From Narthecium ossifragum (taxonomy: Eukaryota; Streptophyta; Magnoliopsida; Dioscoreales; Nartheciaceae), in assembly GCA_963920575.1 (NCBI GenBank), contig OY986965.1, forward strand, positions 17,996,957 through 18,060,956: a stretch of DNA of 64,000 nucleotides. The letters run 5' to 3'. Both the position numbers and the translations under genes were made by a program. Below the pieces are notes generated by a model. The model was not told where the DNA came from. It ran no database searches and saw only the letters and a list, made by a program, of their open reading frames with translations. The first letter of the stretch is position 1. Every line of letters begins with the position of its first letter. Positions 6,763-57,369 of this stretch are shown in pieces.

Positions 6763-7246
6763 TTTATATAAGGACATGAAACGCTAGCTTTTATTTCAGC
6801 CGTTGGATTAAATCTGATGGCTCATATTCAGGTTGCCCGACAAGGGATCGATCTTCTTAAGGATAAAGATCGATCTTCTTTCTTTTCTCAATTTTCGTAA
6901 CCTTGTTCGCCCCAACTAAGATCGATCTCCCTAAGGAAAGGATCGATGTTCTTTCTCCGTAGACTGGGTTCCTTCCAGATCGTCCAGGTTCAGATCGATC
7001 TTTTTCAAGGAAGAGATCGATCTCTTTCATCAGTTGTTGTCAACACCCACAAAGGATCGATCTTCCTAGTAAAGAAGATTGATCTTTTATTCCAACTTTC
7101 TTGTTTTCGCTCACGGTCGATCTTCGCATCGACCCTACGAAGTGTTTTCTTTGACAGAGGCTGACGGTCGATGCCACGGTCGATCGTAGGTCTTTTTCAT
7201 CTCTGCATCCATAAGAGATTGATCTTTTATGTAAGGAAGATCGATC
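6763..7246 (-). promoter_or_regulatory. E1 LTR promoter: TATA box plus GATCGATC array
   Basis: On the minus strand a TATATAAA box (6763-6770) is preceded by seven exact GATCGATC palindromes at 6846, 6868, 6920, 6993, 7015, 7055 and 7239, plus several one-off variants. Two pairs (6846/6868 and 6993/7015) have 22-bp spacing. The position just upstream of the TATA box fits an LTR U3 enhancer. The assignment as regulatory is inference from position and recurrence. Confidence 0.6.
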
Positions 7247-7579
7247 TTTTATTTCCTGCATATTTCTTCTGCCATTCTGCACTGCGCACTGGCACTAAAA
7301 ACACTATAACTTCCTCTATGAAGCTCCAAATCACGAACCGTAAAATTCTCCCGAAACTAGACTTCAAGAGCTTTCCAACCATATATGGCACATCATCTGG
7401 TTCGTCATGAGCAGGTACAGTGTTGGCATTAAAGACCCATCTTTGCTTCAATTTCCTGCATAATACAAATAACTTTGTGAAGTAACATATACGGACGAAA
7501 TCGTCTATACTAATCATGAAAACTAAGCAAATAGGCTGCTCTTAGTCATGTTCAGAGTGCACTTTCATGCACTCATCAA

Positions 7580-9857: not shown

Positions 9858-11516
9858 TGATGAGTGCATGAAAGTGCACTTGAAACAGTCTTATAACCAT
9901 CTCAATTGCTAGATTATTATCCTTAATCAACATCTTTATTACTATTTTTACATCAATATGTTGCTTCACATGGTTGTTTGGAAAATGCAGGAAATTGGGG
10001 TTAAAAGAAGCTGAAAAGAGTATATGGAGCAATTTCACAAATTAATCTGTACCTTCTTGTGAAGAACCAGATGATGTGCCATATATGGTTGGAAAGCTCT
10101 TGAAGTCTAGATTCTGGAGAATTTTACGGTTCATGATTCCGAGTTTCTTAGAGGAAGTTACGGCAATTTTAGTACCGATGGCGCAGTCTGAAGGGCAGAA
10201 CAGAAAATAAGCTGGAAGTCCGATCGATCCGCCGATCGATCGGACTACGCAGAATCATGACAGAACATGTGTTTTTTGGTTGAACATGGTCCGATCGATC
10301 CCTCCATCCCTCCTATGGGGTCCGATCGATCCGGCACCTATAGTTGGATCGATCGGACTCAAAAATAGCCAGAGAAGGTGGATTTTTATGCATCCGATCG
10401 ATCCAGCGCCCATAGTTCGATCGATCGGACTCGGGCGTAAATAGAAGTTGAACATTTTAATGAGACGGATCGATCCAACATCCCGAGGAGGATCGATCGG
10501 ACGTTCCCAGTGAATTAAATCAACGGTTTAGATCAAATCCGTTGATGGAGAGACTTTGGGGCTATAAATAGGACTCTTTCTAGGGTTTGAGGGGGATTTC
10601 TTGGACGTTTTTGGAGGCTCTTTTCTGGATGTTTTCCAAAGGAAGAAGATGGAGGAATCTCCATCCATGGCTGACTAATCCGCGGGCATGGCGGACGGAT
10701 GATCTAGCAAGGATTAGGGTTTCTTCTCCAACAATGGTTCATAGTTTTTAATCTTTATTTTTAAACTCTTTTTATGTATTGGATCTTCACAGATTGCTTT
10801 GTGGTTAAACATTATTATAAATCCAGTCATGCTTTTTTTATGATATTGTGATCCCATAGTTATCTCTTTTGATTCTCCTACCGAGTCTTGCGAGACCTTT
10901 GCTATGCATTGCCCGTAGTGACAGCTGGTATTGTGTATTCTTAGGGATCTGGTAAGACAAGGTTGGGGCTCTATCCCGTGAGATCTTTGCTATGCATTGC
11001 CGATTGTGAGAGTTGGTATTATGTATTCTTAGAGATCCGGTTAGAGTTAGGGCTTTGTCCCGATGAACTTTTGCTGCGCGTTGCCTGTAGTGACAGTCGG
11101 TATCGTGTATTCTTAGGTTTGGTTGGATGAAGTTAGAACTATAAAGGGGAGAACCAGTCGTAGGAAGAGACATTTATATATTTTGTCAGATTCATAATTC
11201 TATATCTTCCGGTTAAGGTGATTGGGATGTGAATCCCTTAACTGAGTATTATATGAACCATTGAGAAGAGAAGAACCTAAATCCGAGTGAAGTGATTTCT
11301 GAAGCCTAGCCTCATTCAAATCTTGATTTCTTTTGTTAACTTTATCTTACCATTACATCTCCGATCTATTTTCTTAACTTTCATCGCTCTTGATTGTTTT
11401 CAATTCATTGTTATCTGTGTTTCTGGATCTTTCCTGCTTGTCTCTCTGTGGGATTCGACCTCTCTTATGCTGTACTGCACCGCGACCGCTGTGCATGACA
11501 CATTTGAGCGACATCA
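9858..11516 (+). repeat. E2 5' LTR
   Basis: It begins TGATGAGTGCATG and ends GAGCGACATCA. U3 carries the GATCGATC array and a TATAAATA box. Downstream of it are three or four imperfect direct repeats of about 60-75 bp around 'gacagt.ggta(t)tgtgtattcttag' (10880-11120). It ends six bases before the PBS. Confidence 0.95.
10222..10570 (+). promoter_or_regulatory. E2 LTR promoter: nine GATCGATC palindromes and TATA box
   Basis: Exact GATCGATC occurs at 10222, 10234, 10293, 10324, 10347, 10396, 10419, 10468 and 10491. The pairs 10324/10347, 10396/10419 and 10468/10491 are each 23 bp apart. Flanks often extend the site to GGATCGATCGGACT or its reverse complement. TATAAATA follows at 10563-10570. 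The same array is in the 3' LTR, offset by 4,766 bp. Function as an enhancer is inferred. Confidence 0.65.
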
Positions 11517-11521
11517 AAAAT

Positions 11522-11539
11522 TGGCGCCGTTGCCGGGGA
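11522..11539 (+). other. E2 primer-binding site (tRNA-Asp)
   Basis: TGGCGCCGTTGCCGGGGA is a perfect 18-nt complement to the 3' end of plant tRNA-Asp, five bases after the LTR end. The same PBS occurs at 27740-27757 on the minus strand in E3 and, with one change, in E1. Confidence 0.95.
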
Positions 11540-11768
11540 GATGGTTCAAAAAAGCGCCAGGATCATCAGATCACGATGATTGAAGACATCGAAGGCGGTA
11601 ACTTTGTTCCCTTTTCTTTGGATTTTTATTTCTTTTTCCTTAGTTTTCTTTATTTTCTTTTTAGTTTTATTTTGATTTTTCGTTTCGCTTTTACCTGTTA
11701 AAAAAAAATTGACAAAAAAAAAACTGAAAAAAAAAGAGAAAATGGAAAATTAATTATATCAATACTAT

Positions 11769-13385: not shown

Positions 13386-14623
13386 TTTGCTCGATTTGCT
13401 TTCTTGTATGCTTGAGAATGCTTGAATTATTTTTATGTTGTGTGCTTGCATGTTTGCTTTTGTTTTTGGTTTGTTTTGCTTTTGTTTTTAGGTCCTCGAG
13501 CAGTCCTTGCCTTCCGTTGGAGATTTTGGCCAGCCATCATTGGGATGAAGATTTCAGCCACCATGAGGAGCCTTGAGGAGATATTTGCTTAATCTGTCAA
13601 GTGGCCTCACTCTTATTTCGATTTCCTATTTTTATTTATGCTATATATGAAAATTCAGTCAACACCCTTCTGCTTATTTACATGATTAGCACACATTGAG
13701 GACAATGTGAATTTCAGATTGGGGGGTGTAGGCATGCATGACCTTATGCATGCTACCTTATTGAGTTTAATAGTGTTGAATTGATTATGTTACTAGAAAT
13801 TGTACATGAGCTGAAATTTTTATGCTTATTATGCATGCTGCTTTCATATGGATTGACCAATACATTGATTGCATGCGTGATAACCTGAAAGTATAACATC
13901 ATGTGATCCACACACGAACACTTTATGTGCAGTGGTAATTATACTCACTGGAGGAATGAACATGCTAGTGTCAATCGAGACCATGATTTCAACATTAGCT
14001 AGTGTTGAGTATTGCATGAGAGAAAAAAGAGAAAAAGTTCTGGAGCTTGTTCAAGCTGTGCCTAAACAACTATTAAGTGATCTACTGAGTAACCGGGTGT
14101 TCTTGCCTCAGGAAGCAGGGAGCTCGAGTAAAAAGGTAGAACCACTAGAAAAAAAAACTATTAAGTGTTTTGCTAAGTAACCGGGTCTCTGCGCCTCAAG
14201 AAGCGGAGAGTGCTCGCGTAAAAAGGCAAAGTGTCTGATAGTTGAGAAAAAAGGAAAAAAAAAAACAAGAAAGACCATGCTGTACTTAAAGAGCGAGGGT
14301 TGGATGATTGGTCATGAAGATAGTAGTGTGTTTGGACTAATGGTGGGTAGAAGTTGCTTCTGCACGTAACATTTATTTGTCACGTCACATGTGTTCTTCT
14401 GGATGGTGATTAGCATGTTTGATGTGTAGAAGTTGATTTCATGTGTTGGTAGTATGTGTATGAGTATAAGAAGTTCCCATGCTCTGTACTACATAAAACA
14501 CTATTGACTTGATAAGGTAGAATTTTTATCATGCATGTCTATATCCTTAAACCGTTAGTGTGCTTAATTATATTCTATGCGCTTTGAATTGCTAGAGACT
14601 AGCAATAAGCTGGTTGGGGGGTG
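13386..14623 (+). other. E2 3' internal region with two polypurine tracts
   Basis: Non-coding stretch after the gag-like ORF. It has CATTGAGGACAATG (13694-13707) followed by TTGGGGGGTG (13719-13728), then about 0.9 kb later the terminal PPT TTGGGGGGTG (14614-14623) immediately before the 3' LTR. An imperfect direct repeat of about 88 bp lies at 14070-14230, sharing 'ctattaagtg', 'taaccgggt', 'cctca.gaagc' and 'gtaaaaaggc'. A small open frame at 13932-14180 overlaps this repeat and is probably not a gene. Confidence 0.75.
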
Positions 14624-16282
14624 TGATGAGTGCATGAAAGTGCACTCTGAACAGTCTTATAACCATCTCAATTGCTAGATTATTATCCTTAATCAACATC
14701 TTTATTACTAGTTTTACATCTATATGTTGCTTCACATGGTTGTTTGGAAAATGCAGGAAATTGGGGTTAAAAGAAGCTGAAAAGAGTATATGGAGCAACT
14801 TCACAAATTAATCTGTACCTTCTCGTGAAGAACCAGATGATGTGCCATATATGGTTGGAAAGCTCTTGAAGTCTAGATTCTGGAGAATTTTACGGTTCAT
14901 GATTCCGAGTTTCCTAGAGGAAGTTACGGCAATTTTAGTACCGATGGCGCAGTCTGAAGGGCAGAACAGAAAATAAGCTGGAAGTCCGATCGATCCGCCG
15001 ATCGATCGGACTACGCAGAATCATGACAGAACATGTGTTTTTTGGCTGAACATGGTCCGATCGATCCCTCCATCCCTTCAATGGGGTCCGATCGATTCGG
15101 CACCTATAGTTGGATCGATCGGACTCAAAAATAGCCAGAGAAGGTGGATTTTTACGCATCCGATCGATCCAGCGCCCATAGTTCGATCGATCGGACTCGG
15201 GCGTAAATAGAAGTTGAACATTTTAATGAGACGGATCGATCCAACATCCCGAGGAGGATCGATCGGACGTTCCCAGTGAATTAAATCAACGGTTCAGATC
15301 AAATCCGTTGATGGAGAGACTTTGGGGCTATAAATAGGACTCTTTCTAGGGTTTGAGGGGGACTTCTTGGACGTTTTTGGAGGCTCTTTTCTGGATGTTT
15401 CCCAAAGAAAGAAGATGGAGGAATCTCCATCCATGGCTGAGTAATCCGCGGGCATGGCGGACGGATGATCTAGCAAGGATTAGGGTTTCTTCTCCAACAA
15501 TGGTTCATAGTTTTTAATCTTTATTGTTAAACTCTTTTTATGTATTGGATCTTCATAGATTGCTTTGTGGTTAAACATTATTATAAATCCAGTCATGCTT
15601 CTTTTATGATATTGTGATCCCATAGTTATCTCTTTTGATTCTCCTACCGAGTCATGCGAGACCTTTGCTATGCATTGCCCGTAGTGACAGTTGGTATTGT
15701 GTATTCTTAGGGATCTGGTAAGACAAGGTTGGGGCTCTATCCCGTGAGATCTTTGCTATGCATTGCCAATTGTGAGAGTTGGTATTGTGTATTTTTAGAG
15801 ATCCGGTTAGAGTTAGGGCTTTGTTCCGATGAACTTTTGCTGCGCGTTGCCTGTAGTGACAGCCGGTATCGTGTATTCTTAGGTTTGGTTGGATGAAGTT
15901 AGAACTATAAAGGGGAGAACCAGTCGTAGGAAGAGACATTTATATATTTTGTCAGATTCATAATTCTATATCTTCCGGTTAAGGTGATTGGGATGTGAAT
16001 CCCTTAACTAAGTATTATATGAACCATTGAGAATAGAAGAACTTAAATCCGAGTGAAGTGATTCCTGAAGCCTAGCCTCATTCAAATCTTGATTTCTTTT
16101 GTAAACTTTATCTTATCATTACATCTCCGATCTATTTTCTTAACTTTCATCGCTCTTGATTGTTTTCAATTCATTGTTATCTGTGTTTCTGGATCTTTCC
16201 TGCTTGTCTTTCTGTGGGATTCGACCTCTCTTATGCTGTACTGCACCGCGACCGCTGTGTGTGACACATTTGAGCGACATCA
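14624..16282 (+). repeat. E2 3' LTR
   Basis: Same length and ends as the 5' LTR (TGATGAGTGCATG...GACATCA). The TATA box is at 15329-15336, and GATCGATC palindromes start at 14988, at the same offsets. It is followed directly by the TSD copy CCATG and by the resumption of the host LTR-T sequence (CAACTAATGCACAAC). Confidence 0.95.
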
Positions 16283-17796
16283 CCATGCAACTAATGCACA
16301 ACAGAGAATGGATGCTATGAACATACACAAATAAGAGATAGGCATGCAACAGTATGATAAAGCAGCATACAAGTCCAACTGGATCGCTGCAGTAGTACTA
16401 CCAACCGCTGCCAGCTGATCCGCAGCGGGTCCCGGCATTACGACGGTACCGCGACCGTCAACCGCTGACTCCTGTAACGGGAAGCAACCCTAAAAACTTT
16501 GATGAACAGTAAAATATAATATTATATGTTTCGAACATATAATATTATATAAAACACCAAAAAAATCCTCTACCTAGAGCTAATTGACCCCGTCGATCGG
16601 ACGTCCAAACGATGTCAGATTCGAGATCCAACTTAGAGTCCAGTAGATCAACATGCTGGGATGAACATATTCAAAATCTAGAAACATCCAACGGCTGGAT
16701 TAACAGGAAAACACTAATCAAAACTAACTTATCATTCCTTGCTGCAACGCAGCCCACCCGTACGAAAATCATAACAAATCGTAGGAAAATAAGAAAATTA
16801 TGAAATCAGTTGGGTTTGAGAGTAGATTCAAGAATCGACAACTCTTATGTTTATCACAACCCAAAACAATGCACGTGCTGGTCGGACAACTCACAGAAAA
16901 CCGGCTGTTCTTCAAGAACAGCAGAAACCGGAAAATCCGAGATTAAACGTGCTTAAATCCTAGTAAAATCTCAACCAAAGCTTATGAAACTTATACCAGA
17001 AATTATACTAAGTAAGAGGTATCAAACACACAAAGAACTGTAAGATCAAACGGCTAGATTAAGAGAAACCCACTAAACAACTCTCGTAGGTAGAAACTTA
17101 TCGGAAACGCACTCCTCGGCTGATTCCCCGCAAACCAGTCACCAACAAGGTTCCAAACCACACCAGGGATCTTCCTCACGTCGTCACAGATCAAACAATC
17201 TTTGGAATGCCAAAAACGGTTGCCGGAGGAGGAAGAACGGAGAAGAAGAAGGTGGCTGCCGGGAAGAACAGAGGAAGCAGAGCGCGGGAAGAAGAAAAAA
17301 GAAGGAAGAAGAAGAGAAGGAGAAGGGGAAGAAGAGGAAGGAAAAGGGAGGGGGAAAGCCGGGGAAGGAGGGGAAAAGGGGGAGGAGAGGAGGGAAAGTC
17401 CTCTGTCCCTCTGACAGGGGAGAGCGACGGCCAACTGCGGCCGTCCTCACAAGAGTCACCACCAGGACTTTCTGGCACAGAGGGATCGATCTCTTTGGCA
17501 AAAAGGATCAATCCGCTTTGCCCAGAAAGTCAAACTTGGGCTAAGACACCAGCCCAAGCTTCGATCTTCTGATCCCGGGTCCACCTAACCATTCTAATCA
17601 AACACTAACACCAAACAAGGTCAGTGTGTGCACACGCGGGTGTGAAACAAACCAACATGGCGCAATTTACCAAATTGCCCTTGTGGTCCAAGAAACAATG
17701 CGATCCACCGGATCGCGCGCTCAACGGGAAACAATCAAAAGAGCCACGGGTCTGACCCAGCCGGTCGACCCAGGAGTAGAGGGACAGGTCCTCACA

Positions 17797-18001: not shown

Positions 18002-19631
18002 TAGGCCTATCATCGAATCGACTGAACACAACCATTCAAACCTGGACCAACCTACCTAGCCCCGGTCCTAAGGCTAATCCGAGCTTCCAAGCCCTTGGGA
18101 CGGTGATACAGCAGATCATCCACGCCCTAACCTTATGCAACTAATGCACAACCAGATGCAATGATCATACGCAGGAGAGAAGCTAAGCATGCATATGTGA
18201 CGATAAAGAACATGGTCAGGGCTCAGCACCCTGCCGCCCCAGGGTGGTGAACATGTAATATAGGCCAAGGAACTGCTGCAGTGGTAACCCCACCAACTGC
18301 AGTCTGTCCACAAAAGAATAGCATGTTACGGGAAGCAACCCTGGCAAACATGGTTAACAGTACAACATACTATCTACACATCCCGGGAGTCGTCACACTC
18401 CCGGTTTACCACTACCCCTCATTATGGGGAAAACATGCTCAAAGGTATGTACAAGTTATAAAGCGGTAAAGAAAACCGCACATACAAAGCCCCGCGGGCA
18501 AAATCCGACGAAAACACCTCACTGCGACTAAAAGGATCGATCTTTTCCAAAAAAGGATCGATCTTCTTAGCAAACAACGAGTTCCATCCCTGTCAAGCCA
18601 AAAAGGATCGATGTTCCTGGAAGATCGATCACCTTCGTGACCAAGGATCTCGTCCATGCCACCAAGCAAAAGATCGATCTTCTTCCACCGGAAGATCTAT
18701 TATGCACGGGCTAGGCACGATGCTCCAAGAATGATCGATCCTTCCTCAAGGAAGATCGATCTTCATGGGTTCTCTGTCGAAACGCTACCAAATCCCACAA
18801 AACTCTGGGATCTAGTAGTACGAAGGACCACGGGTCCAAAATTGGTACTTGCACTGAAAACCAACATGTATGCAAGGAGATCTACGTAAACAAAACACGC
18901 ACGGGCTAGGCACGAGGCTCCAAGAATGATCGATCCTTCCTCAAGGAAGATCGATCTTCATGGGTTCTCTGTCGAAACGCTACCAAATCCCACAAAACTC
19001 TGGGAGCTAGTAGTACGAAGGACCACGGGTCCAAAATTGGTACTTGCACTGAAAACCAACATGTATGCAAGGAGATCTACGTAAACAAAACACAGGAAAG
19101 CTCAAAACTCACAAAAACCGGAAAGCATCCCAACCTAGACGAAAACAGCTTCAATCTGCGCTGCTGAGCCTAGGATTGTCCTCAATCTCCTCCAAAATCT
19201 CGTCAGATCTGAGCTCAAGAACTACGGATTTCAAAAGGAGAAAAGAGAAGGAAGTTGCGTCCGTTTTATAGACGGACGAACCGACCTATGAATGATCGAT
19301 CTTTTCTAGATCGATCCTTCATGATCGATCTTAGCAAGAAAAGATCGATCATTTTGTGCAGAAAGCTAGACTTGGGCTAAAACACAAGCCCAAGTCCAGA
19401 TCTTTCGATCCCGGGTTCACCTAACCATTTCAAACAAACATTATCACAAACATGGTCAGTGTGTGCACACGCGGGTGTGAAACAAACTGACAAGGCACAA
19501 TTTACCAAATTGCCCTTGCGGCTCAAGAAACAATGTGATCCACCGGATCGCGCGCTCGAAGCGAAACAAGCAAGCGAGCCACGGGCCCGACCCGGGCGGT
19601 CGACCCAGGAGTAGAAGGACAGGTCCTCACA
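18002..19631 (-). repeat. LTR-T fragment (minus), 3' part missing
   Basis: It begins inside LTR-T at GCCTATCATCGAATCGACTG (matching 53787 on) and runs to the proper end GGTCCTCACA. About 0.7 kb of the LTR 3' end is missing. Element A gag resumes at 19632. It carries a GATCGATC cluster (18535-18760) and a 195-bp tandem duplication. Confidence 0.85.
18705..19094. repeat. Tandem duplication, two 195-bp units
   Basis: Unit 1 (18705-18899) and unit 2 (18900-19094) both run from CACGGGCTAGGCACGA to GTAAACAAAACAC. I see only about two differences (GATGCTCC/GAGGCTCC and GGGATCTAG/GGGAGCTAG). The unit is single in other LTR-T copies such as 56614-56780. It therefore duplicated recently in this copy. 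Confidence 0.93.
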
Positions 19632-21895: not shown

Positions 21896-24396
21896 TGTGA
21901 GGACCCGTCCCTCTACTCCTGGGTCAAACGGCTGGGTCGGGTCCGTGGCTCGTTGGTTTGCTTCGCGTCGAGCGCGCGATCCAGTGGATCGCATTGTTTC
22001 TTGGGCCACAAGGGCAATTTGGTAAATTGCGCCTTGTTGGTTTGTTTCACACCCGCGTGTGCACACATTGACCTTGTATGTGTTAGTGCTTGTTTAGAAT
22101 GGTTAGGTGGATCCGAGATCGGAAGATCTGAGCTTGGGCTCATGTTTTAGCCCAAGTTTGCCTTTCTGGGCGAAGGAGATCGATCTAAATTGCTAATGAG
22201 ATCGATCTGACCTTGCTAACCAGATCGATCTGACATGCTTTGGAGATCGATCGCTTAGTGCAGAAGGTCTTTGGGCTGTTGGCGGCTCGGGAGCGATCGA
22301 TCGGACTCGAGTCGGTTGGTTTTCTGCTTCGCGAGGACGGCCGTCATTGGCTGTCGCTCTCTCCTGTCAGAGGGGGAGGACTTTCCCTCCCCTCCTTTCT
22401 CTTTTTCCCCCTTCCCCCGGCTTTCCCCTTCCCCTTTTCCCTTCTTTTCTTCCTCCTTCTCCTTTCTTCTTCCTTCTTCTTTCTTCTCCCGTGGCTCTGC
22501 TTTCTTCCCCTGTTTCCGGCAGCGAGCTTCTTCTCTTCCTTTCTCCCTCTTCCGACCATCATTTTGGGTGGTCTAAGGCTCGTTGGATCCGTGGCAACGA
22601 GAGGAAGGCCCCTGGTGTGGTTTGGACGCTTGTTGGTGACTGGTTGTGAGGGATCAGCCGAGGAAAGCGTTCTTCGGTAAAGTTCTTCTACCTACTGTGT
22701 TCTTTAATGGGTTTCTTTAGATCTAGCCGTTGGATCTTGTTGATCTTTGTCTTGTTGGTTTCCTCATGCCTAGTAGAATTTCTGATATGAGTTTTATGAT
22801 CTTTGGTTGAGAGTTTAGTAGGTTTTATGCATAATTAAGCTCGGATTCTCTGTTTTCTGCTGTTCTTGAATAACAGCCGGCTTGCGGCGAGTTTTTCGGC
22901 CGGTACGTACATGATCCTGGGTTGTGATGACCATAAGAGTTGTAGATCTTTGAATCTACTCTCTAACCCAACTGATTTCATAGTTTGTCGATTTTCCTAC
23001 GATTTGTTATGAATTGTTTACTGGAGGGCTGCGTTGCAGCAATTAATTGGTAAGTTAGTTTGATTAGCGGTTGTGATTAGTGTTTTCCCGTTAATCCAAC
23101 CGTTGGATGATTATGGATTTTGGATATGTTGATCCTGGTATGTACCCCTACTGATGGTTAAGTTGGATCTTGAATCCAACGTCGTTTGGACGTCCGATCG
23201 ACGGGATCAATTAGCCCCTAAGTAGAGGCTTTGGGTGTTTTGAATATAATATTATATTTTGGAATATAATATTATATTGTTTACTGTTCATCATCGTTTT
23301 CGGGGTTGCTTTCCGTTGCAGGAGTCCACGGTTGACGGTCGCGGTACCGTCGTAATGCCGGGACCCGCTGCGGATCGGCTGGCAGCGGTCGGTGGTACCG
23401 CTGCAGCGATCCGGTTGACTTATATGATGTTTCTCATACTGTTGCATGCTTTACTTCTTATCTGTGTATGTTCATAGCATACATTTTTCCTGTTGTGCAT
23501 TAGTTGCATTGGTTAGGGCGTGGGTGATCTGTGGGTCGCCCTCCCGAGGCTGGAAGCTCGGACCTAGCCCTAGGACCGAGGTTGGGTAGTTTGGACCCGG
23601 TTTGAATTGTAGTGTCCAGTCGATTCGATGATAGGCTTAGATGACTGGTGCACTTGTTGCTTGATGATTGCAGATGTCGTGTCGGCCTCGAGCCAGACGT
23701 TGTGAGTGCAAACCGGTGTCCGGGTCATTGTCTCTTGGGGGGAAGAGGTGCCTACCCAGCGGTGTGGTTGCCCGCCTAGCAGAGTCTGGTGCCTGCTAGT
23801 GAGAGGGCAGTGTGGTTCCTGACTCGCTGAGGGAAACCCAGTATGTGACCAGTTCGGCTGGAAGACCATGACTGAGGCCTCCCTTCAGGGACACCGGCGA
23901 AGGGTTATGGGACCCTTGCGGCACACCCGAGTCTTACCTGAGGGCGACACTGTTGCGTTTCCCTCTTCCTTATGTGTGTCATATTGTAGATACCTATTGA
24001 GCTTAGTGCTCACACCTACTCGGGTTGCGTTTTGCAGGTGCAGGCGTCAGTTCTTCCTCTGTGGCCCAAACCGGGCAGTTGGTCGACGGTGTGGCGGCAC
24101 CTGATGGACTTTGAGAGGTGGCGATCTTTACTGCTTTTACCTTTGATAGATAGTCTCCTACGGGAGTAATGTTGTATTTGGATCTTCCCCTCTCCGAGGA
24201 TATGTATATTAAACACTTTGAGTTTTAAATCTGTGGTTCGATATTGTTAAATTGTTGTTTTAAATTGAGGGTGCTTTTGGTGAATTGCTAGGGAGATCAA
24301 TAGGTTAGAGGGAACCCTCGCCGTCTTTTTCCGTGTTTGTAGGTTCCGGTTCGCTTCGCCCGGCCCGGTTGGGCTTTCGCGGGTCGGGGTGCGACA
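21896..24396 (+). mobile_element. Solo LTR, family T (plus), TSD TCTCT
   Basis: A 2,501 bp unit from TGTGAGGACCCG to GGGTCGGGGTGCGACA. TCTCT lies at 21891-21895 and 24397-24401. Deleting the unit restores the RT reading of element A without loss of a codon. It holds a GATC-rich block (22180-22305), a pyrimidine-rich tract (22370-22560), and two copies of the palindrome AATATAATATTATATT (23243-23278). No ORF of note. Confidence 0.95.
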
Positions 24397-27762: not shown

Positions 27763-29382
27763 TGATATCGCTCAAATGTGTCATGCACAGCGGTCGCGGT
27801 GCAGTACATCCTAAGAGAGGTCGAACCCACAGAGAGACAAGCAGGAAAGATCCAGAAATACAGATAACAATATATCGAAAACAATCAAGAGCGTAAAAGT
27901 TCAGAAGATAGATAAAAGATGTAGTGATAAGATAAAGTTAACGAAAGAAATCAAGATTTGAATGAGGCTAGGCTTCTGAAATCACTTCACTCGGATTAAG
28001 GTTCTTTTCTTCTCAATGGTTCATATGATATTCAGTTAAGGGATTCACATCCCAATCACCTTAACCGGAAGATATGAAACTATAAACCTAACAAAATATA
28101 TAAATGTCTCTTCCTACGATTGATTCTTCCTTATTATAGTTCTAACTTCATCCAACCCAAACCTAAAAGTACACGATACCGGCTGTCACTACAGGCAACG
28201 CGCAGCAAAAGTTCATCGGGACAAAGCCCTAACTCTATCTAACCAGATCTCGAAAAATACACAATACCGACTCTCACAATCGGCAATGCATAACAAAGAT
28301 TCCTCAGGATAGAGCCCCAACCTTGTCTTACCAGATCCCTAAGAATACACAATACCAGCTATCACTACGGGCAATGCATAGCAAAGGTCTCATGAGACTC
28401 GGTAGGAGAATCAAAAGAGATTACTATTGGATTATAAGATCATGATAGAAGCATGACTGGATTCATAATATTAATCATCCACATAGAAATCTATAATGTG
28501 AAAATAGTCTTTGAAGATCCAATATATAGAAAAGAGTTTAACAATAAAGATTAAAACTATGATCCATTATTGGAGAAGAAGTCCTAGTCCTTGCTAGATC
28601 ATCCGTCCGCCATGCCCGCGGATTACTCGACTATGGATGGAGATTCCTTCATCTTCTTCCTTTGGGAAACGTCCCGAAAAGAGCCTCCAAAAACGTCAAG
28701 GAACTCCCCTTTGATTAACCCTAAGTTTCCTATTTATAGCTCAAAGTCTCTCCATCCTCGGATTAGATCTAAACCGTTGATTTTCTTCACTGGGAAAGTA
28801 GGATCGATCCAACTCTAGGTGTAGGATCGATCCGACTCATCAAAATCTTCAATTTCTGGCTACGCCCGAGTCGGATCGATCGGACTATCGGTGTCGGATC
28901 GATCGGACTCAGTAGGATGGATGGAGGGATCGATCGGACTGTGTACAGCTGAAAAAAATACGTTATGTCAGGTTTTTGCATAGTCGGATCGATCGGACTA
29001 TGGGTGTAGGATCGATCGGACTTTCCAGCGTATTTACTGTTTTGTCATCCAGACTGCGCCATTGGTACTAAAATTGCCGTAACTTCCTCTACGAAACTCG
29101 GAATCACGAACCGTAAAATTCTCCAGAATCTAGACTTGAAGAGATTTCCAACCATATATGACACATCATCTGGTTCTTCATGAGCAGGTACAGTTTAATT
29201 TTTGAAGTTGATCCATATACTCTTTTCAGCTTCTTTTAGCTCCAATTTCCTGCATTTTCCAAACAACTATGTGAAGCAACATATAGATATAAAAATAGTA
29301 GTAAAAATGTTGATTAAGGATAATAATCTAGCAATTAAGATGGTTATAAGGTTGTTCAGAGTGGACTTTCATGCACTCATCA
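27763..29382 (-). repeat. E3 5' LTR (minus)
   Basis: TGATATCGCTCAAATG...CATGCACTCATCA in plus coordinates. On the minus strand there is a TATA box TATAAATA (28731-28738) with GATCGATC sites upstream at 28802, 28825, 28874, 28897, 28928, 28987 and 29010. Three pairs are exactly 23 bp apart. It is homologous to the E1 and E2 LTRs. An open frame at 28591-28818 is incidental. Confidence 0.92.
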
Positions 29383-30710
29383 CCGGCCCGGGATGGAGGA
29401 CAATAAATACAGGCCAAGGAACTGCTATAGTGGTAACGCCACCAACTGCAGCTAGCCCTGCAAAAGACAGCATGTTACAGGAAACACCCCCGGCAAACAA
29501 GACTAACTGTATAACATGCTATCTACACATCCCAGAAGTCGTCACTCTCCTGGTTCACCACTACCCCTCACTATGGGGCTATCATGCTAAAAATATATAC
29601 TAGTTTATAAAGCGGTAAAGAAAAATTGCATACGCAAAGCCTCATGGGCAAAAACCAGTGAAAACACTTCCCTGTCACCCAAAGGATCGATCATCTCCAA
29701 AGGGAATGATCGATCTTCCTAGTGATAGGAAGGTTCCGTCCCTATCAAGCCCAAGGTGATCGATCCTTCCTCCAAAAGGATCGATCATCCTCATGACAGA
29801 GATCTCACCCATGCAAGCCAAGGCGAAGTGATCGATCATCCTCACCAGATGATCGATCCTTCTCCGACCAAGCATGATGTACCAAGAGTGATCGATCCTT
29901 CCTCAGCAAGGATCGATCCTGTTGGGTTCTCTGGCAACCGGACGACGAGAAATACCGTCGGAAAACTCTACCAAATCCCACAAAACCTTGGAATTTGGTA
30001 GTATGAAGGACCACGAGTCCAAAACTGGTACGTATGCCAAAAACCAATGAATATGTAGCAAGATTAAGTCAAACCAAACACAGACAAACTCAAACCTCAC
30101 AAAATCGTATTGCAAGTAGGTAGGATCCCTACCTAGACTAGCGCAACTTCAATCCTAGCTGCCAAGCCGACGATCACCCTCAATCTCTTCCAAATCCAGC
30201 CAGAACTGAGCTCAGGGTTGGAGGATTTCAAAAGGATTCAAAGAAGAAGGTAGCGTTTGTTTTATAGACGGATGAACCGACTAATGAGTGATCAATCATT
30301 CAGGAGGAATGATCGATCCTTCATGACGATAGCAACTTCCTGGCACCAAATGATCGATCCTTCAAGTGAGGAAGGATCGATCATCACTAAATGATCGATC
30401 CTTCTAGCAATGAATGATCGATCATCTAGGTGCAGAAAGCTAGACTTGGGCTAGAACACAAGCCCAAGCCCGGATCTTTCGATCCCGAGTTCACCTAACC
30501 ATTCTAAATAGACATTACCATAAATATGGTCAGTGTGTGCACACGCGGGTGTGAAACAAACCGACAAGGCGCAATTTACTAAATTGTCCTTGCTTTCCAA
30601 GAAAGAATGTGATCCGTCGGATCGCGCGCTCGACACCAAACAAGCAAACGAGCCACGGGTCTGACCCATCCGGTTGACCCAGGAGTAGAGGGGCAGGCCC
30701 TCATAGATGC

Positions 30711-31221: not shown

Positions 31222-33473
31222 TGTTACGAGTTCAACCACCACCAAACCAGCTCAGACTAGATCCATGCCCAAACCAAAGCATGGGTGGATCCATGGTCAA
31301 GGTTAGGTGGGACCCACGTCCCTTTGGGCATCCTAAGCCCAACCGGCGAAAAGGAATCCAATTCCTAGCTGCTTACTTCCTTAGTTAGTTCTTCATTACC
31401 TTCCTAGTTGATTTCCTAGTTTGAGTTCACTTTATGCTTTGCTTTATTAGTTCCTATTATGAGTCCTAGTTATTATGAAGTTTTAGTTATGATTGACTGT
31501 TAGTAGGAAAACATTATTACTTGCTGATTAAAGCAAGGTAGTTCTCTAGTTGGAGTAGAACTTTGTCAAGGCCTCTATAAAAGGACATCTATAGTTTGTA
31601 TTAGGTTATGGACGAATTATGATGAATACAGTATAGTTATTAGTAGAATAATTCTAGGAGTAGATGTAACCCTAATTCCACCAACTCCATTAGTCACCTT
31701 TACTTCCCTTCCCTACCGCCAGATCCCTTCTCCACCATCGGCCTCCGCCATCCGCTGCCATCCTCCGTCCACCGTCAAGCTTCTCTCCCTCTCCGCTGCC
31801 ACCCATGCCTCCGCCGTCCAACCCCAAGTCCCCGGCGTACCCCTTGGCTGCTGTGCTCCTTTCCGTCATCCTTCGTCCGCTGCCACGTTCTCCAAGGCTT
31901 GGATTCCCCAAGGGTAGCCGGCCAACCATAGAGGAAGCTGCGAGGTAATCCTCTTCCTCATCCATCTCTCTCCTCCTGTTTAAGCCTTCCTCATCGAATA
32001 CCTAGGGTGCTTCTCCTAAAACCTTAAAGGTATCTCTCGACCTAGCCATAGATTTGGCTAAGGAGGAGCCGAGACCAGGCAAGAGACCCGGTACTGATAA
32101 GTCATGAAAAGTATACAAATCACCCTTTTAACTGAGTCTTGTTAGTTACCGAGCAATGCTATTTTGAATAGTATTGGTTTATTTCAGGTATTAGGGCCAT
32201 CAACAAAGATTAGATCAAGTTTGGAGCTAAAGAAGCCTAGATAGGTTGTATTCAATATTAAATCTGTACCTGCTCAGAATGAACTAGAGGATATGCCGAA
32301 CATTATTGGAAAGCTCAGGAAGCCTAGTTTCCGAAAGTTTTTACGGTTTGTGATTTTGAGTTTCATAGAAAAAGTTATGTTATTTTTAGTACAGAGGTGC
32401 ACAGAAAGAAGCTACGGACAAACTAGATCGATCGGAGTCCTAAAAGAAGATCGATCTGCGTCGGGGTGCATCTGCAGAAACCTAAGGTTAAGATCTAATC
32501 TGAGGGAGACTTGAGTTAGGGTTTTGGGCCATATAAAAGGGGTCTTTTGGCCGAATTTTGGAGGCTTGAATAGAGAGTCTTTTGGAGAAATAATAGAGAG
32601 AGAAGAGGGTGGAGAATCAGAAGACGGTGATCCTTCCGCGGGGATCAATGGCTTCATCTTCTACATCGATTGATGATTTCCAAGAGATGAGTGGCTATAT
32701 TTATTGTTCTTAGGAATAGCATGAAGCCCGAGTGTAACTTTTGACCTTTATTGGATTTTGGTGAACTTCTCTATGTATAATCTCATGAATATGATTTTAA
32801 TGATTAATGATTAATGATTATAGAGTTGAAGGAACAGAGTTACGTTGACGTAGTCTTAGTCCTACATGATGGTTGTACTTGATTGTAGAGATTTATGAGA
32901 TAGTTTTCATATGGTTTGTGATTTCCTTTTGAGATAATCTATGCTACGTGAAGATAAGTCATGCTAAGGTCATTACGAGTAGAATAACTTAAGGTAAATG
33001 TAGGACCGAAAATGATTTATGCCAAACAAAGATAGATTACGCCGTAGGAAATATAAAACCTTATTTTAGGGATTCGTGTGAGCTTGTAGCCATATGATCC
33101 ATAATGCTTAGAGAAGTGATCAAAATGATAAGAAGGGAAGATTAAGGGTGAAACTAGGGTGGATTGTGCATTTCCTCAGACATCTTTTCCATTTGATTAA
33201 AACCCTAATATTTTCTTTTGCTTTCTTAGATAGTTTCAGTTAGATCAATCTATCATTGAATTTCTTAGCTTAGATCTAGAGTTTTGAGATATGATTTTGA
33301 TTTTTCCTAGTAAATCCCAGTGGTTCGACTCCGGATTTCACCACTAGTATACTTAGTAGTCTTAGAGATTGAATAAGGATATAAATTAAAGATTTGATTG
33401 AGGTTAGCAACGTTTAAAGATCACATTTTTGAGCGAGCAGGTACCAGCGCTTACGAGAAAGCTCGGCGTATCA
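31222..33473 (+). repeat. Element A 3' LTR, interrupted by solo LTR S2
   Basis: It begins TGTTACGAGTTC right after the PPT and ends GGCGTATCA, matching the 5' LTR end at 8368. It is about 0.90 kb when the 1,345 bp insert and one GGTAC are removed. A TCC/CCG-rich stretch (31690-31900) is shared with 7940-8110. No TSD can be tested because the 5' end of the element is truncated. Confidence 0.88.
32095..33439 (+). mobile_element. Solo LTR, family S (copy S2), TSD GGTAC
   Basis: A 1,345 bp TGATAAGTCATG...GAGCGAGCA unit flanked by GGTAC (32090-32094 and 33440-33444) inside the element A 3' LTR. It shares the 'gagataa.ctatgctacg.gaagata' and 'gtgagcttgtagccatatgatcc' blocks with S1. TATAAAA lies at 32532-32538, with a GATCGATC pair at 32426 and 32449 upstream. 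Confidence 0.95.
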
Positions 33474-37022: not shown

Positions 37023-39382
37023 TGTGAGGACCCGTCCCTCTACTCCTGTGGCTCGTCGTGGACCGCAAGGGTAATTTGGTAAATTGTGCCTTGTCGGCTT
37101 GTTCCACACTCGCGTGTGCACACACTGACCATGTTTGTGGTATTGTTTGGCAAGAATGGTTATTGGGACCTGGGATCGGGCTTGAGCTTAAGTTTTAGCC
37201 CAAGTCCAGCTTCCTGCGAGAGACGGATCGATCCTTCCTTGCTAGAGAGATCGATCGGTCTTTGCCAGGAACATGGATCGTTGCGAAGGATCGATCGGTC
37301 TCGTGGGACGGATCAATCGGACTCGGAGAAGGATCGATCGGTCTCTTGGTTGGATCGATCGTTCCCTTGGCTGGATCGATCGGTCTCCTTGGCTGGATCG
37401 ATCGCTCTCTTGGCTGGATCGATCGGTCTCCTTGGACGGATCGATCTTGCTAAGTCGGTTCGTTTGCCTATAAAACAAACGCAACCTTCCTCCTTGAATC
37501 TTTTTGGAAAACCGGATTCTTGGGCTGAGAATTCCTGGATTTCGAAGAGTTCGTAGACGATCCAAGGCCTAGTAGCTGGGATTGAAGTTGGTATTGCTTA
37601 GGTAGAGATTCCTACCTACATTCTTCGGGTTTTGGAAGTTTTTCCGGCTGTCGATGTTCTTATGCTTAGATCTTGTTGTATACTTGTTAGATTGTAGTAT
37701 TTCCGCCGATTTTGGATTCGTGATGCTTCGTACTACTAGATCCCAAGGTTTTGTGGATTTGGTGGAGTTTTCCGACGGTATTTTTTCGCCATTGGTTTGC
37801 CGGAGAACCCAACCGATCGATCCGTCTATGAGATGGATCGATCCATCCTTGTTGGTCATGCTGAACCCGAGCAGGATCGATCGGCCCCGGGGGAGGGCGA
37901 TCGATCCCGGTGCCTTGGATAGCATGGGATGTTCCCTATCGCGAGTCGAATCGATCGTCTTGGGAGGACGGATCGATCGGACTCAGTGCGGTATGGAGAG
38001 TTCGCTCTCTGTCATTAGAGGGATCGATCCTCCCTTGGGGGAGGGATCGATCCGACTATGGCAGAGAGAGGAAATTTATCTTGATTTGCTCAGGGGGCTT
38101 TGCATGTACGGTTTTCTTTACTGTCTTAATACATGGTATATATGTTTAAGCATGTTAGCCCTATAATAGAGCAGTGGTGAACCGGGGGAGTGATGACTCC
38201 CGGGATGTTTAGAATAAACGGGCGGGTAGCCCTACAGCTTTTCCTAGCCTCGCATGCCGGCGTGCGCCGAGGGCTTTATCTGTTATATCTGTAAGCTGTT
38301 GTTAGCGGGGCTGATTTCCGGTGCAGGTGTTGTGGCGGACTGCTGGCAGTTGGTGGTGCTACCACTGCAGCAATCCCTAGACCTTATTTATCTGTTCACC
38401 ACCCCGGGCCGGCAGGGTGCCGTGCCCAGACCTTGTTATTTATAACATCACATACTGTTGCATGTTTATATGTTTTATCCTGCGCATGTCCATAACATGC
38501 ATTGTGTTGCGCATTAGTTGCATCTGTGTAGGGCGTTGCCGATCTGGGGCTTTCGGGTAGCCCGGATCTAGCTCTAGGACCGTTGCGGGTAGCTTGGTCC
38601 TGGACTCGATTTGTAGTATTCAGTCGATTTTCGATGATAGGGTTAGATGACCTGAATACATGTTGCTTGATGATTATAGAGGTCGTGTCGGCCTCGGGCC
38701 GAGTGTGGAGGTGTAGCCGATGTCCGGTTCATTGTCTCATGGGTAGAGGTAGTGCCTACTCAGCGGTGTTTGTTGCCAGCCTAGTAGAGTCGGGTTCCTG
38801 CTAGTGAGATGGCAGTGTTGGTCTGCCTCGCTGAGGGCGGCCCAGTATGTGACCAGTCCGACTGGAGAACATGACTGGAGTCTCTTTTCAGGGACATACG
38901 GTGTGGTTATGGGACCCTTGTGTACACCCAACCTCTGGTTGAGGGCGATACTGTTGTGTTCCCTCCCTTGTGAGTGTCGTAGTGTAGTGTCCCTGCTGAG
39001 CTTAGTGCTCACTCCTACCCGGGCTGCGTTTTACAGGTGCTGGCGCTAGCTCTTCTTTGGTCGCCCCTATCGGGCCGGTGCTTGGTGACGTGGCGGCATC
39101 TGGCGGTGCTTGAGAGGTGGCGATCTTTACAGCTTTACACCCTTTTGTTATAGATAGTCTCCTACGGGAGTGATAAATGTATAATTTTTCCTGTTTTGAG
39201 GTTTTGTAATATATCAGTTTCAGTCTTTGAGTTGTGAATGTTTGTATAATACAGGATGTTTGAGAATTGCTAGGGTAACCACTACGATTAGAGGGAAACC
39301 TCGCCAAAATTTTTCCGCAGTAGGTTAGGTTCCGCTTCGCGTCGCCCGGCCCGGTTGGGCCTACGTGGGTCGGGGCGCGACA
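37023..39382 (+). mobile_element. Solo LTR, family T (plus), TSD TCTTA
   Basis: 2,360 bp, TGTGAGGACCCG...CGGGGCGCGACA, with TCTTA at 37018-37022 and 39383-39387. The host LTR of element C is continuous across it. It has the densest GATCGATC array of the window, nine sites before and seven after the TATA box. It contains no coding region. Confidence 0.95.
37226..37475 (+). promoter_or_regulatory. LTR-T promoter: phased GATCGATC array and TATAAAA
   Basis: GATCGATC at 37226, 37249, 37289, 37332, 37353, 37374, 37396, 37417 and 37439. From 37332 on, the spacing is 21, 21, 22, 21 and 22 bp, forming a small tandem array around GGATCGATCGGTCTC. The TATA box TATAAAA is at 37469-37475. A second set follows at 37815, 37836, 37875, 37899, 37971, 38022 and 38045. 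Role inferred from position. Confidence 0.62.
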
Positions 39383-53067: not shown

Positions 53068-56000
53068 CCTAACTAACCGCAGAAATTTTGGCGAGGGTTC
53101 CCTCTAGTCTACTAGTTTCCCTAAGCATTCATCAAACACTCTCAATTAACAATTCTAAAATTAATAGAAACCTCAAGATTTACATATTACAATCCAAAAG
53201 GTATAGGTCTACAAAACCTCCAAGAGGGGAAAATCAAGTACAAACATTTATACATCGTAGGAGGCTAACTCAACAGGCGTTCTGAAGACATAAAGCTCAC
53301 CGCTCCTCAAACTCCGACAGGCGCCGCCGCACCGCCAACCAACTACTCGGTAGGGGCTACCGAAGAGGAGATAACGTCTGCACCTACAAAACACAGCCCG
53401 GGTAAGAATGAGCAACTAAGCCCAGCAGGGAAACTACACTACAACTCACAGAAGGAAGAGGAAAACACAATAGTGTCGCCCTCTAGCAATGCCTGTGTGT
53501 ATACAGGGGCCCCATAACCCCACCGTGTGTCCCTGAGGGGCCTCAGTCATGGTCTTCCAGCCGAGCTGGTCACATACTGGGTCACCGTCAGTGAGGCAGG
53601 AAACCAACACTGCCATCTCACAAGCAGGAAACCAACACTGCTAGGCGGGATGACAACACCGCTGAGTAGGCACACCCTCTACTCAAGAGACAAGAAAATC
53701 GGACACCGACTATACCTCAGAACCCGGTTCGAGGCCGACACGACCTCTACATCATCAATCAACAAGTATTCAAGTAATCTAGGCCTATCATCGAATTGAC
53801 TGAACACAGTCATTCAAACCTGGACCAAGAAACCCAGCCCCGGTTCTAAGGCTAATCCAAGCTTCCAAGCCCCCCGGATGGCGATACCGTAGATCGCCCA
53901 CGCCCTAACCTTATTCAACTAATGCACAACCAGATGCATGCTATGAACATACACAGGAGAGCAGCTAAACATGCAACATATGCGACGATAAAGAATATGG
54001 TCTGGGCTCGGTACCCTGCCGGCCCGGGGTGATCAAAAAGTAAAATATAGGGCAAGAAACTGTTGCAGTGGTAACCCCGCCAACTGCCACCAGTCCACAA
54101 AAGAATAGCATGTTACGGGAAACAACCCCGACAAACACGACTAACAGTATAATATGCTATCTACACATCCCAGGAGTCGTCACTCTTCTGGTTCACCACT
54201 ACCCCTCATGTGAGGACCTGCCCCTCTACCCTTGTGGCTCGTTGTAGACCACAAGGGCAATTTGGTAAATTACGCCTTGTTGGTTTGTTTTACACCCACG
54301 TGTGCACACACTGACCTTGTTTTTATTAGTGCTTGATTAGAATGGTTAGGTGGACCCGGGATCGGAAGATCCGAGCGTGGTCTTGTGTTTTAGCCCAAGT
54401 TTGAGTTTCTGGGCAAAGAAGATCGATCTTTCTTGCTAAGGAGATCGATCTTCCTTGCTAAGGGGATCGATCTTCCTTGGGAAGAGATCGATCCCTCTAT
54501 GCCAGAAAGTCCTGGCGGTGATCCTTGAGAGGACGGCCGCCGTTGGCCATCGCTCTCCCCTGTCAGAGGGAGAGAGGACTTTCTCTCCTCTCCTCCCCCT
54601 TTTCCCCTCCTTCCCCGGCTTTCCCCCTTCCTTTTCTTCCTCTTCTTCCTCCTCTCCTTCTCCTTCTTCTTCCTTCTTCTTTCTTCTTCCCGCGAGCTCT
54701 GCTTCCCCTGTTTTTCTAGCGAGCTTCTTCTTCTCCGTTCTCCCTCCTCTGGCCACAGTTTTGGGCGTTCCAAGGCTCGTTGGATCCGTCGCGACTTGAT
54801 GAAGATCCCTGTTTTTTCGGCGAGCTTCTTCTTCTCCGTTCTCACTCCTCCGTTCAGCCGAGGAGTGCGTTTCCGGTAGGATTTCTACCTACGAGAGTTG
54901 TTCTTGGGCTTGCTCTAGATCTAGCCGTTAGATCTTGTTGTTCTTTGTGTTGTTGGATGCCTTTTTCTTAGTATAATTTCTGGTATAAGTTTCATAAGTT
55001 TTGGTTGAGATTTTAGTAGGATTTATGCATGTTTAATCTCGAATTTTCCGGTTTCTGCTGTTCTTGAAGAACAGCCGGTTTACGGCGAGTTTTTCGATCA
55101 GTACGTGCATGTTCGTGGGTTGTGATTAACATAAGAGTTGTAGATCTTTGAATCTATTCTCACACCCAACTGATTTCATAGTTTTATAATTTTCCTACCA
55201 TTTGTTATGAATTTCTTACTGGTGGGCTGCGTTGCAGCAAGAGATGGTAAGTTAGCTTGATTAGCGGTTTTGATTAGTGTGTTTCCGTTAATCCAGCCGT
55301 TGGATGTTTCCAGATTTTGAATATTTTGATCCCAGCATGTTAATCTACTAGACACTAAGTTGGATCTCAAATCCGACATCGTTTGGACGTCAATTAGCCT
55401 CTAAGTAGAGGATTTTGGTGATTTAAATAATATTATATGTTTGAAACATATAATATTATATTTTAATGTTCATCGCGGTTTTCGGGGTTGCTTCCCGTTG
55501 CAGGAGTCTGCGGTTGATGGTCGTGATACCGTCGTAATGCCGGGACCCGCTGTGCATCGGCTAGCAGCAGTTGGTAGTGCCGCTGCAGCGATCCAATTAG
55601 ACTTGTATGCTGCCTTATCATACTATTGCATGCCTATCTTCTTACTTGATGATAGGCTTAGATGACTGGTACACCTGTTGCTTGATGATTAGAGATCGTG
55701 TCGACTCGAAGTTGAATCTGAGGTGTAGCCGGTGTCCGATGTTCTTTACTCTTGAGTAGAGGAGTTACCTACTCAGTGGTGCCCTTTCCCGGCAAATAGT
55801 GTTCTGTGTCCTGTTGAGAGTCTGCAGTGTTTGGGCCTGCGTTCACGAACTCCCGATGGGGTTATGGGACCTTTGTATACACCTAGGTTCGACTTGGGGG
55901 TGACACTGTTGCGTTTCCCTCTTCCTTCTGTGTGTCGTAGTGTAGAACCCTACTGAGCTTTATGTTCACTCCTACCCGGGCTGGGTTTTGCAGGTGCATG

Positions 56001-57369
56001 CGTCAGTTCTTCTTCTGTGGCCCCTACCGGGCAGTTGGTGGGCGGTGCGGCGGCGCCAGGCGGAGTCTGAGTGGTGGTGATCTTTACTGCTTTTACCCTA
56101 TGTTTGATAGCCTCCTACGGGAGTAATGTTGTATTTAGATCTTCCCCTCTCCGAGGATATGTATATTAAATTTTACTTGGGTTTTCTAATCTGAGGTTCG
56201 AGGCTTGTAATTTAATTATGTCTTTTTTAATTTGAGGGTGCTTGTGATGTTTGTTAGGGAGACCAATAGGTTAGAGGGAACCCTCGCCAATAATTTCCGC
56301 GGTTTGTTAGGTTTCGGTTCGCGTCGCCCGGCCCGGTTGGGCTTTCGCGGGTCGGCGCGTGACACCTCATTATGGGACTAACATGCTTAGAGGTATGTAC
56401 AAGTTATAAAGCGGTAATGAAAAACCGCACTTACAAAGCCCCGCAGGAGAAATCCGACGAAAACAACTCCCTGCGACCAAAAGGATCGATCTTCTTAGCA
56501 AACAGGGAGTTCCATCCCTGTCAAGCCAAAAAGGATCGATCACCCGTTTAGGAAGATCGGTCACCTTCGTTACCAAGGACCCCGTCCAAGCCGCCAAGCA
56601 AAAGATCGATCATGCACGGGCCAGGCATGACGACCCAAGAATGATCGATCCTTCCTCAAGGAAGATGGGATCTTCATGGGTTCTTCGGCGAACCGGAGAA
56701 GGAAGGACCATGAGTCCAAAACTTGTACTTGTATAAAAAACCAACGACCATGCAAAAAGATCTACTCAAAACAACCACAAACAAGCTCAAAACTCACAAA
56801 AACTGGAAAAACAAGTAGGTAGCATCCCTACCTATACAAAAGCAGCTTCAATCCGCGCTGCTGAGCCTAGGATCGCCCTCAATCTCCTCCAAAATCTCGA
56901 CAGATCTAAGCTTAAGAACGGCAGATTTCAAAAAGGGAAAAGAGAAGGGGGTTGCGCCAGTTTTATGGACGAACGAACCGACCAATAAATGATCAATCTT
57001 TTCCTCAAGAAAAGATCGATCATTCATGACGAGAAACTTCACTTTCTGGCACTAAAGGATCGATTTTCTTAGCAAGAAAAGATCGATCATTTTGTGCAGA
57101 ATGCTAGACTTGGGCTAAAACACAAGCCCAAGCCTAGTCCTTTCGATCCCGTGTTCACCTAACCGTTCTAAACAACCATTATCACAGACACGGTCAGTGT
57201 GTGCACACGCGGGTGTGAAACAAACCGACAATGCATAATTTACCAAATTGCCCTTGCGGCCCAAGTAATAATAGGATCCATCGGGTCGCGCGCTCGACGC
57301 GAAACAAGCAAGCGAGCCACGGGCCCGACCTGGACGGCCGACCCAGGAGTAGAGGGAAAGGTCCTCACA
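53068..57369 (-). mobile_element. Solo LTR, family T (minus), end-truncated, with nested LTR-T
   Basis: The first about 55 bp of the usual plus-strand left end are missing; it starts at CCTAACTAACCGCAG (compare 9016 on). It ends normally at GGTCCTCACA. The flanks (GATCGATCGTT and GATTGATCGG) are similar but not a clean TSD, as expected if the left end was trimmed. It is about 2.14 kb without the nested copy. Confidence 0.85.
54209..56364 (+). mobile_element. Solo LTR, family T (plus), TSD CCTCA
   Basis: 2,156 bp, TGTGAGGACCTGCCC...GGTCGGCGCGTGACA, with CCTCA at 54204-54208 and 56365-56369. It is inserted in a minus-strand copy of the same family, so together they form an inverted arrangement. 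It has GATCGATC at about 54421-54490, a pyrimidine tract (54560-54710) and an AT hairpin (55426-55461). Confidence 0.95.

Follow-up and report, generated by a model that had tools for sequence, protein, structure and literature searches.

Why does one perfect palindrome, the octamer GATCGATC, recur in dense arrays within the promoters of long terminal repeats (LTRs) in a single stretch of the Narthecium ossifragum genome? The window, by which we mean the whole 64,000 nucleotides of contig OY986965.1 that were analysed, is a nest of LTR retrotransposons and holds 93 copies of this octamer versus about one expected from dinucleotides, nearly all of them in the promoter-bearing part of an LTR. 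The runner-up among palindromic octamers in the window has 9 copies, and the other 23 palindromes with one each of G, A, T and C per half have 0 to 6. GATCGATCGATC occurs 0 times in the window, GATCGATC never extending to a third GATC, and a GATC microsatellite is therefore ruled out. The initial annotation of this DNA had counted nine octamers in one LTR where about 0.004 would be expected by chance; our recount of 10222-10498 returned the same nine, with a mononucleotide expectation of 0.0039, and the octamer coordinates given there were likewise correct.

Self-comparison, alignment and local alignment outside the arrays resolved the LTRs into two lineages, E and T. Lineage E consists of E1 (minus strand), E2, E3 (minus strand) and E4, a diverged LTR near 32426; lineage T consists of T1 to T4 and a variant, T-b, missed by the initial annotation, whose LTRs are named S1 to S3 (the LTR-S of that annotation, at 32426, is our E4). 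The earlier division into three unrelated families had to be abandoned, the 32426 LTR aligning as a diverged E-lineage member (alignment score 120 with E1, compared with 25 for the best of 100 shuffles) that forms one lineage with E1-E3, with T as the other. Outside the arrays, E1, E2 and E4 scored 18-28 against T1, T3 and S2 in 9/9 comparisons over both orientations, and 0/9 of these E-T comparisons beat the best of 30 shuffles (24-34); the window therefore contains two unrelated lineages. The best delimited element is E2 (9858-16282), whose LTRs are as follows:

9858..11516, plus strand: E2 5' LTR (TGATGAG...GACATCA), with target duplication CCATG and then a TGGCGCC primer site
14624..16282, plus strand: E2 3' LTR, with an eight-octamer array at 14988-15264

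The two LTRs of E2 are 97.8% identical and about 3.1 kb apart, with a gag-like open reading frame at 11769-13385 between them; one octamer of the 3' LTR has T where the 5' LTR has C. E2 looks non-autonomous because no pol reading frame of at least 130 amino acids was found between its LTRs. A Retrotrans_gag domain and the TGGCGCC primer site are present in both E2 and E3, and RVT_1 and RT_RNaseH_2 domains in the region after the LTR of E1. We take the E elements, with these domains and this primer site, to be Athila-like gypsy retrotransposons, the gypsy-type label covering lineage E and no coding region being tied to T. The E3 gag had no match in IMG/VR. Three T-lineage LTRs are flanked by 5-bp target duplications (S2 TCTCT, T3 TCTTA, S3 CCTCA), and T1 is followed by TGGTATCA, presumably an initiator-Met-type primer site. 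The 3' end of the T1 LTR (17874-18001) reads GGCCGTTACA, as against GCGACA or similar in the other T-lineage LTRs, with which T1 does not align beyond 18002. T-lineage LTRs have received three insertions, E2 in S1, E3 in T2 and S3 in T4. Integration into the octamers themselves was considered and dismissed: by eye, all three insertions miss the clusters, the nearest octamer lying about 119 bp off (56484, in T4).

The octamers are arranged in these LTRs as follows:

6846..7246, minus strand: array of E1 with seven octamers; its LTR (6402-7578, continuing past an insertion) is of lineage E
10222..10498, plus strand: E2 5' LTR array, nine GATCGATC, with pairs at 23 bp (10324/10347, 10396/10419, 10468/10491) and the TATA box at 10563
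28802..29017, minus strand: E3 array, seven octamers, aligning with E2
32426..32456, plus strand: E4, diverged member of lineage E; one pair at 23 bp, its second octamer starting 83 bp before TATA
18535..18956, minus strand: T1 array downstream of TATA, with a 195-bp tandem duplication (18704-19093)
19294..19350, minus strand: T1 array upstream of TATA
29685..29918, minus strand: T2 array downstream of TATA
30311..30423, minus strand: T2 array upstream of TATA
37226..37446, plus strand: T3 array upstream of TATA, with six consecutive sites 21-22 bp apart from 37332
37815..38052, plus strand: T3 array downstream of TATA
56484..57088, minus strand: T4 arrays, the downstream part at 56484-56650 and the upstream part at 57014-57088
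17484..17491, minus strand: sole intact octamer of the T-b LTR S1, whose aligned first site reads GATTGATC
22178..22302, plus strand: array of the T-b LTR S2 (LTR 21896-24396, duplication TCTCT)
54421..54493, plus strand: array of the T-b LTR S3 (LTR 54209-56364, duplication CCTCA)

New relative to the earlier list are the E2 3' LTR array (14988-15264), the T1 sites at 18928-19350, the T4 arrays (56484-57088), the T-b sites (17484, 22178-22302, 54421-54493) and, beyond the array zones, three isolated octamers. One of these singles, at 706, lies within a reading frame bearing RT_RNaseH_2 (402-872, minus strand), and the other two, at 53057 and 57463, lie near the two ends of the T4 LTR alignment. 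The zones were drawn by hand around the sites, so that the presence of 90/93 octamers within them is true by construction. The 195-bp tandem duplication of T1 is 99% identical, includes an octamer pair and leader sequence, and is a recent expansion of the array. We also noted a second word, TTAGCAA/TTGCTAA, between the octamers, with 9 occurrences in the blocks versus 0.3 expected; it lies in the spacers (e.g. 19323-19350, 22178-22252 and 54416-54493), by eye mainly in T and T-b, and is possibly a partner site.

The position of the arrays relative to the TATA box follows a pattern in each lineage. Those of E lie upstream of it, with 83, 72, 71 and 83 bp from the start of the last octamer to TATA in E1, E2, E3 and E4, respectively, and in 4/4 of these LTRs the last octamer closes a 22-23 bp pair. 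The upstream arrays of T1, T2 and T3 end 31, 52 and 30 bp before TATA. The annotated claim that most clusters lie just before TATA thus describes E1-E4 and T1-T3; in T4 and the T-b LTRs no TATA[AT]A match was found beside the upstream cluster. A second cluster after TATA, claimed there for LTR-T, is indeed present in T1, T2 and T3, starting 314, 348 and 346 bp downstream, presumably in the transcribed leader. The T-b LTRs bear a long pyrimidine-rich stretch (22333-22487, 54500-54700) and no TATA match after the array, and for this reason their promoter may be of another type.

Neighbouring octamers also keep a preferred distance. Of 72 adjacent distances below 80 bp, 64 were left after exclusion of the E2 3' LTR and of the second T1 195-bp copy, both of which were left out of the spacing and pair tests; they include 21 bp ten times, 22 bp eight times and 23 bp thirteen times. 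In clusters of more than two sites, 30/62 adjacent distances are 21-23 bp, whereas 5000 random placements averaged 4.2 and never exceeded 13, so that the preference for 21-23 bp noted earlier holds within the window. By element, the pair spacing is 22 bp in E1, 23 bp in E2, E3 and E4, 20, 21 and 23 bp in T1 and T2, 21-24 bp in T3 and 21-23 bp in T-b. Octamer pairs occur elsewhere too, as a pair-pattern search of IMG/VR shows, although its matches are no background for plants: 85/104 stretches had at most two octamers per 300 bp and 19/104 had at least three, 11 of these 19 with GATC runs of at least three (distance 4). Three of the stretches (L035, L028 and L062) hold eight GATCGATC each in 300 bp. 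The end word of the E LTRs was found in two IMG/VR stretches, both without octamers.

Within the arrays, the octamers vary much less than the letters around them, in agreement with the earlier remark that arms and spacing are kept through changes in the intervening sequence. Deviations from the majority in T1-T4 affect 24/356 octamer bases, 176/702 of the ten bases on each side and 941/6775 of the rest of the LTR (T1's second 195-bp copy was left out of the T alignments for deviation and gap counts). The corresponding counts are 1/168, 26/339 and 168/4245 for the two E2 LTRs and E3; 6/192, 60/320 and 331/3312 when E1 is added to this set; and 1/48, 15/99 and 574/6057 for T-b, where the difference between octamer and rest of LTR is borderline (Fisher p 0.051). 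The central CG of the octamers deviates in 7/95 cases, compared with 263/1277 for CG elsewhere in T1-T4. Because Fisher tests on such deviations count related sequences as independent, and because aligners draw octamers together, we also made an alignment-free count. In the zones it found 90 octamers intact, next to 13 separate variants with one mismatch, of which about two would be expected by chance; the variants predicted were 30 and 116 at the LTR rates of 0.04 and 0.139, and 60 and 240 at the flank rates of 0.077 and 0.25. The two LTRs of one element are identical at insertion. Those of E2 now differ at 1/72 octamer bases and 36/1589 others, a comparison of low power in which no protection of the octamer after insertion is visible. 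The octamer was held while the elements were active, and we read its conservation as probably reflecting selection on the octamer itself.

The reading that we favour, with a probability of roughly 0.6, is that GATCGATC would be a palindromic cis-regulatory repeat of LTRs, similar to those of Sireviruses and read by a sequence-specific, probably dimeric protein. We infer from the DNA that such a protein would bind at GATCGATC, as a dimer, and activate transcription there. The LTR promoters of both lineages would contain a repeated palindromic cis-regulatory element with the octamer as its constrained core, and the reader of the octamer would be a sequence-specific nuclear protein, probably dimeric because the site is a perfect palindrome. 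With pairs at 21-23 bp, two of these proteins would sit near TATA at a distance of about two helical turns. Within the arrays, sites would come and go and spacers would change quickly, with selection on active elements retaining the octamer. The suggestion of the initial annotation, a shared cis-element for one regulator, is consistent with the persistence of the octamer, its proximity to TATA and its sharing by two lineages. Its more specific proposal, a two-site enhancer for a dimer or tetramer, may apply to the pairs, which do have complementary arms, but symmetry covaries at single sites as well. Against the favoured reading, the flanks of the octamers are dyad-symmetric and covarying, which a plain 8-bp site does not need; the T-b arrays have no adjoining TATA match; and adjacent distances favour a 9.5-bp period (R 0.68) over one of 10.5 bp (R 0.39), so that general 10.5-bp helical phasing was rejected.

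The symmetry of the flanks is real; it may stem from a hairpin, from a dimer site or from correction of palindromes as the element is reverse-transcribed. If the members of a 21-23 bp pair were the arms of a stem-loop acting in RNA or in extruded DNA, selection would retain the structure, and hairpin regions of this kind can attract small RNAs, which concentrate on Sirevirus palindromes (PMC10760457, PMC5311732). The 33 pairs do form more stable folds than when their spacers and flanks are shuffled (mean z -1.6), and in 19 homologous hairpins, paired by hand from the E and T alignments, the hairpins' own halves beat halves permuted at homologous positions (energy p 0.0004; outer arms 66/114 versus 55.0, inner arms 62/95 versus 54.3). 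However, sites 31-75 bp apart show a weaker form of the same effect (27, z -1.07), shuffling within families leaves p values of 0.016 (inner) and 0.21 (outer), and covariation of the symmetry is just as strong at single octamers (p 0.0004 and 0.014); moreover, a hairpin requires complementary arms and not this particular octamer. These wide-spacing, within-family and single-site controls led us to reject the hairpin as the main explanation, which we regard as unlikely. Covariation of the flanks both around single sites and within pairs would also follow if palindromes provoked template switching in reverse transcription, generating inverted flank copies and more sites with little selection. 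Quasi-palindrome correction does occur by template switching, and the number of sites varies between copies. Such a process does not predict that two unrelated lineages should share one octamer, that exactly these eight bases should be conserved, or that a 22-23 bp pair should be fixed near TATA, and it is quite unlikely to be the main cause. An origin of the octamers in the assembly was weighed as well, the ligation junction of Hi-C and Chicago libraries made with GATC-cutting enzymes being exactly GATCGATC (PMC5288721). In 230 ordered copy-to-copy comparisons, the octamer was identical in 158, substituted in 33, wholly gapped in 36 and partly gapped in 3 (18 more, in which the reference octamer was split, were set aside); a lone GATC with a 4-bp gap was found in 0/230 of these sister-copy comparisons, and the sole 4-bp gap lies within a longer gap beside a near-intact octamer. 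Together with the 370 lone GATC that remain in the window and the same array in both E2 LTRs, this led us to reject a junction artefact, which is extremely improbable.

Transfer between lineages, the alternative that the initial annotation had offered as exchange of U3 segments, finds some support in E1. This LTR aligns with E2 and E3 on both sides of its array (71-90%), and the spacers and flank letters of the array differ from theirs. With octamers masked, the E1 block resembles T1r, T2r and T3r (z 4.4, 5.1 and 4.8), compared with z of at most 2.5 against E2 or E3, and this T-like block sits in an E-type LTR frame. An array taken from the other lineage or from a common source would make the sharing a matter of transfer and not of independent upkeep, and a motif in the LTR of wheat Quinta is reported to have come from another retrotransposon family (PMC11302176). 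The likeness is short, however, and since the control shuffles spacers it fits either an exchange of segments or the same flank letters arisen twice. E2 and E3 show a weak likeness to T blocks, reaching only z 3.0-3.2 among 91 block pairs. Exchange would explain the origin of the arrays and not the later retention of the octamer, and as an account of their sharing we hold it to be distinctly improbable. By analogy with VANC, which acts at tandem motif arrays, the octamers might instead attract a factor, encoded by a transposon or by the host, that lifts silencing. VANC targets in VANDAL elements are described as short motifs in fast-changing noncoding tandem arrays (PMC5735166, PMC10398659), a description that the present arrays resemble, and the octamers raise the CpG content of their blocks: observed/expected CpG in ten blocks is 0.76-1.58 with octamers and 0.00-1.09 without them (E2, 0.80 without and 1.53 with), the window as a whole standing at 0.73. 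VANDAL elements, by contrast, are DNA transposons with their own VANC protein (PMC5735166), and two unrelated lineages would here need the same factor; an anti-silencing role of this type is very unlikely.

Returning to a cis-regulatory repeat as the favoured reading, we compared the arrays with known LTR systems. Sirevirus LTRs contain palindromic repeats (RMs) upstream of TATA that were proposed to be cis-regulators (PMC2829016). The arrays in the window resemble these in consisting of short perfect palindromes in many clustered copies, with dyad symmetry reaching into the flanks, in their location upstream of TATA in E1-E4 and T1-T3, and in the conservation of the motif within an otherwise very diverse LTR. 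One Sirevirus member, Tnd-1, has ACAATCGATTGT, which shares ATCGAT with the octamer (PMC2829016). The differences are that the RMs described, except that of Tnd-1, have a CGG-CCG core and the core here is GATCGATC; that Sireviruses are Ty1/copia elements and lineage E, with gag, RVT_1 and RT_RNaseH_2, is of gypsy type; that two unrelated lineages in one window share the octamer; and that T has a further array downstream of TATA (PMC2829016). A palindrome reported from maize Sireviruses similarly spans transposable element classes of one genome and lies in predicted structured regions, the sharing there being between Copia and Helitron (PMC10760457). Del LTRs have variable 5' CpG islands, with no repeated palindrome described in the accessible text of that report, where the string 'palindrom' occurs 0 times (PMC4029996). 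The octamer array thus belongs with the constrained palindromic LTR repeats known from Sireviruses, but has another core and occurs in two unrelated lineages, one of them gypsy-type. The open-licence literature, to which most subscription papers do not belong, yielded no published LTR array of GATCGATC.

As to the protein that might read GATCGATC, plant GATA factors that recognise a GATC core are a weak candidate. GATC motifs, acting through GATA factors, increase transcription in step with their copy number (PMC11525189), and GATCGATC is itself among predicted rice elements in a study noting that GATA factors bind a GATC core (PMC6918188). The arrays share this core, and the second array of T, presumably in the transcribed leader, would stand in the motif's working place, which is within 500 bp downstream of the start site (PMC11525189). 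The YVGATCBR motif works downstream of the start site with minimal effect upstream, and a doubled octamer is not required for it (PMC11525189); in the window, by contrast, the E arrays lie upstream, and 48/93 octamers match YVGATCBR in at least one half. The downstream arrays of T start 314-348 bp after TATA, the point from which the distance is counted. Since downstream action would suit the second array of T and not the arrays of E, GATA factors are proposed as candidates only.

A further proposal, tentative and on present evidence doubtful, is that unrelated LTR retrotransposons may share one trans-acting factor, host- or transposon-encoded, as their currency. The exact 8-bp palindrome is kept in arrays by both lineages, in T on both sides of TATA, with its surroundings replaced, as if the elements were escaping sequence-based silencing and remained tied to one contact. 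On the practical side, Hi-C pipelines that discard the sequence after GATCGATC (PMC5288721) would lose genuine LTR sequence here. If the favoured reading is true, palindromic LTR repeats of the Sirevirus type reach a gypsy-type lineage, and two lineages at once. If one protein does read the octamer, these elements would provide a natural test of how unrelated retrotransposons depend on one regulator amid promoter turnover, with numerous copies, a pair fixed near TATA and naturally occurring variants in spacing.
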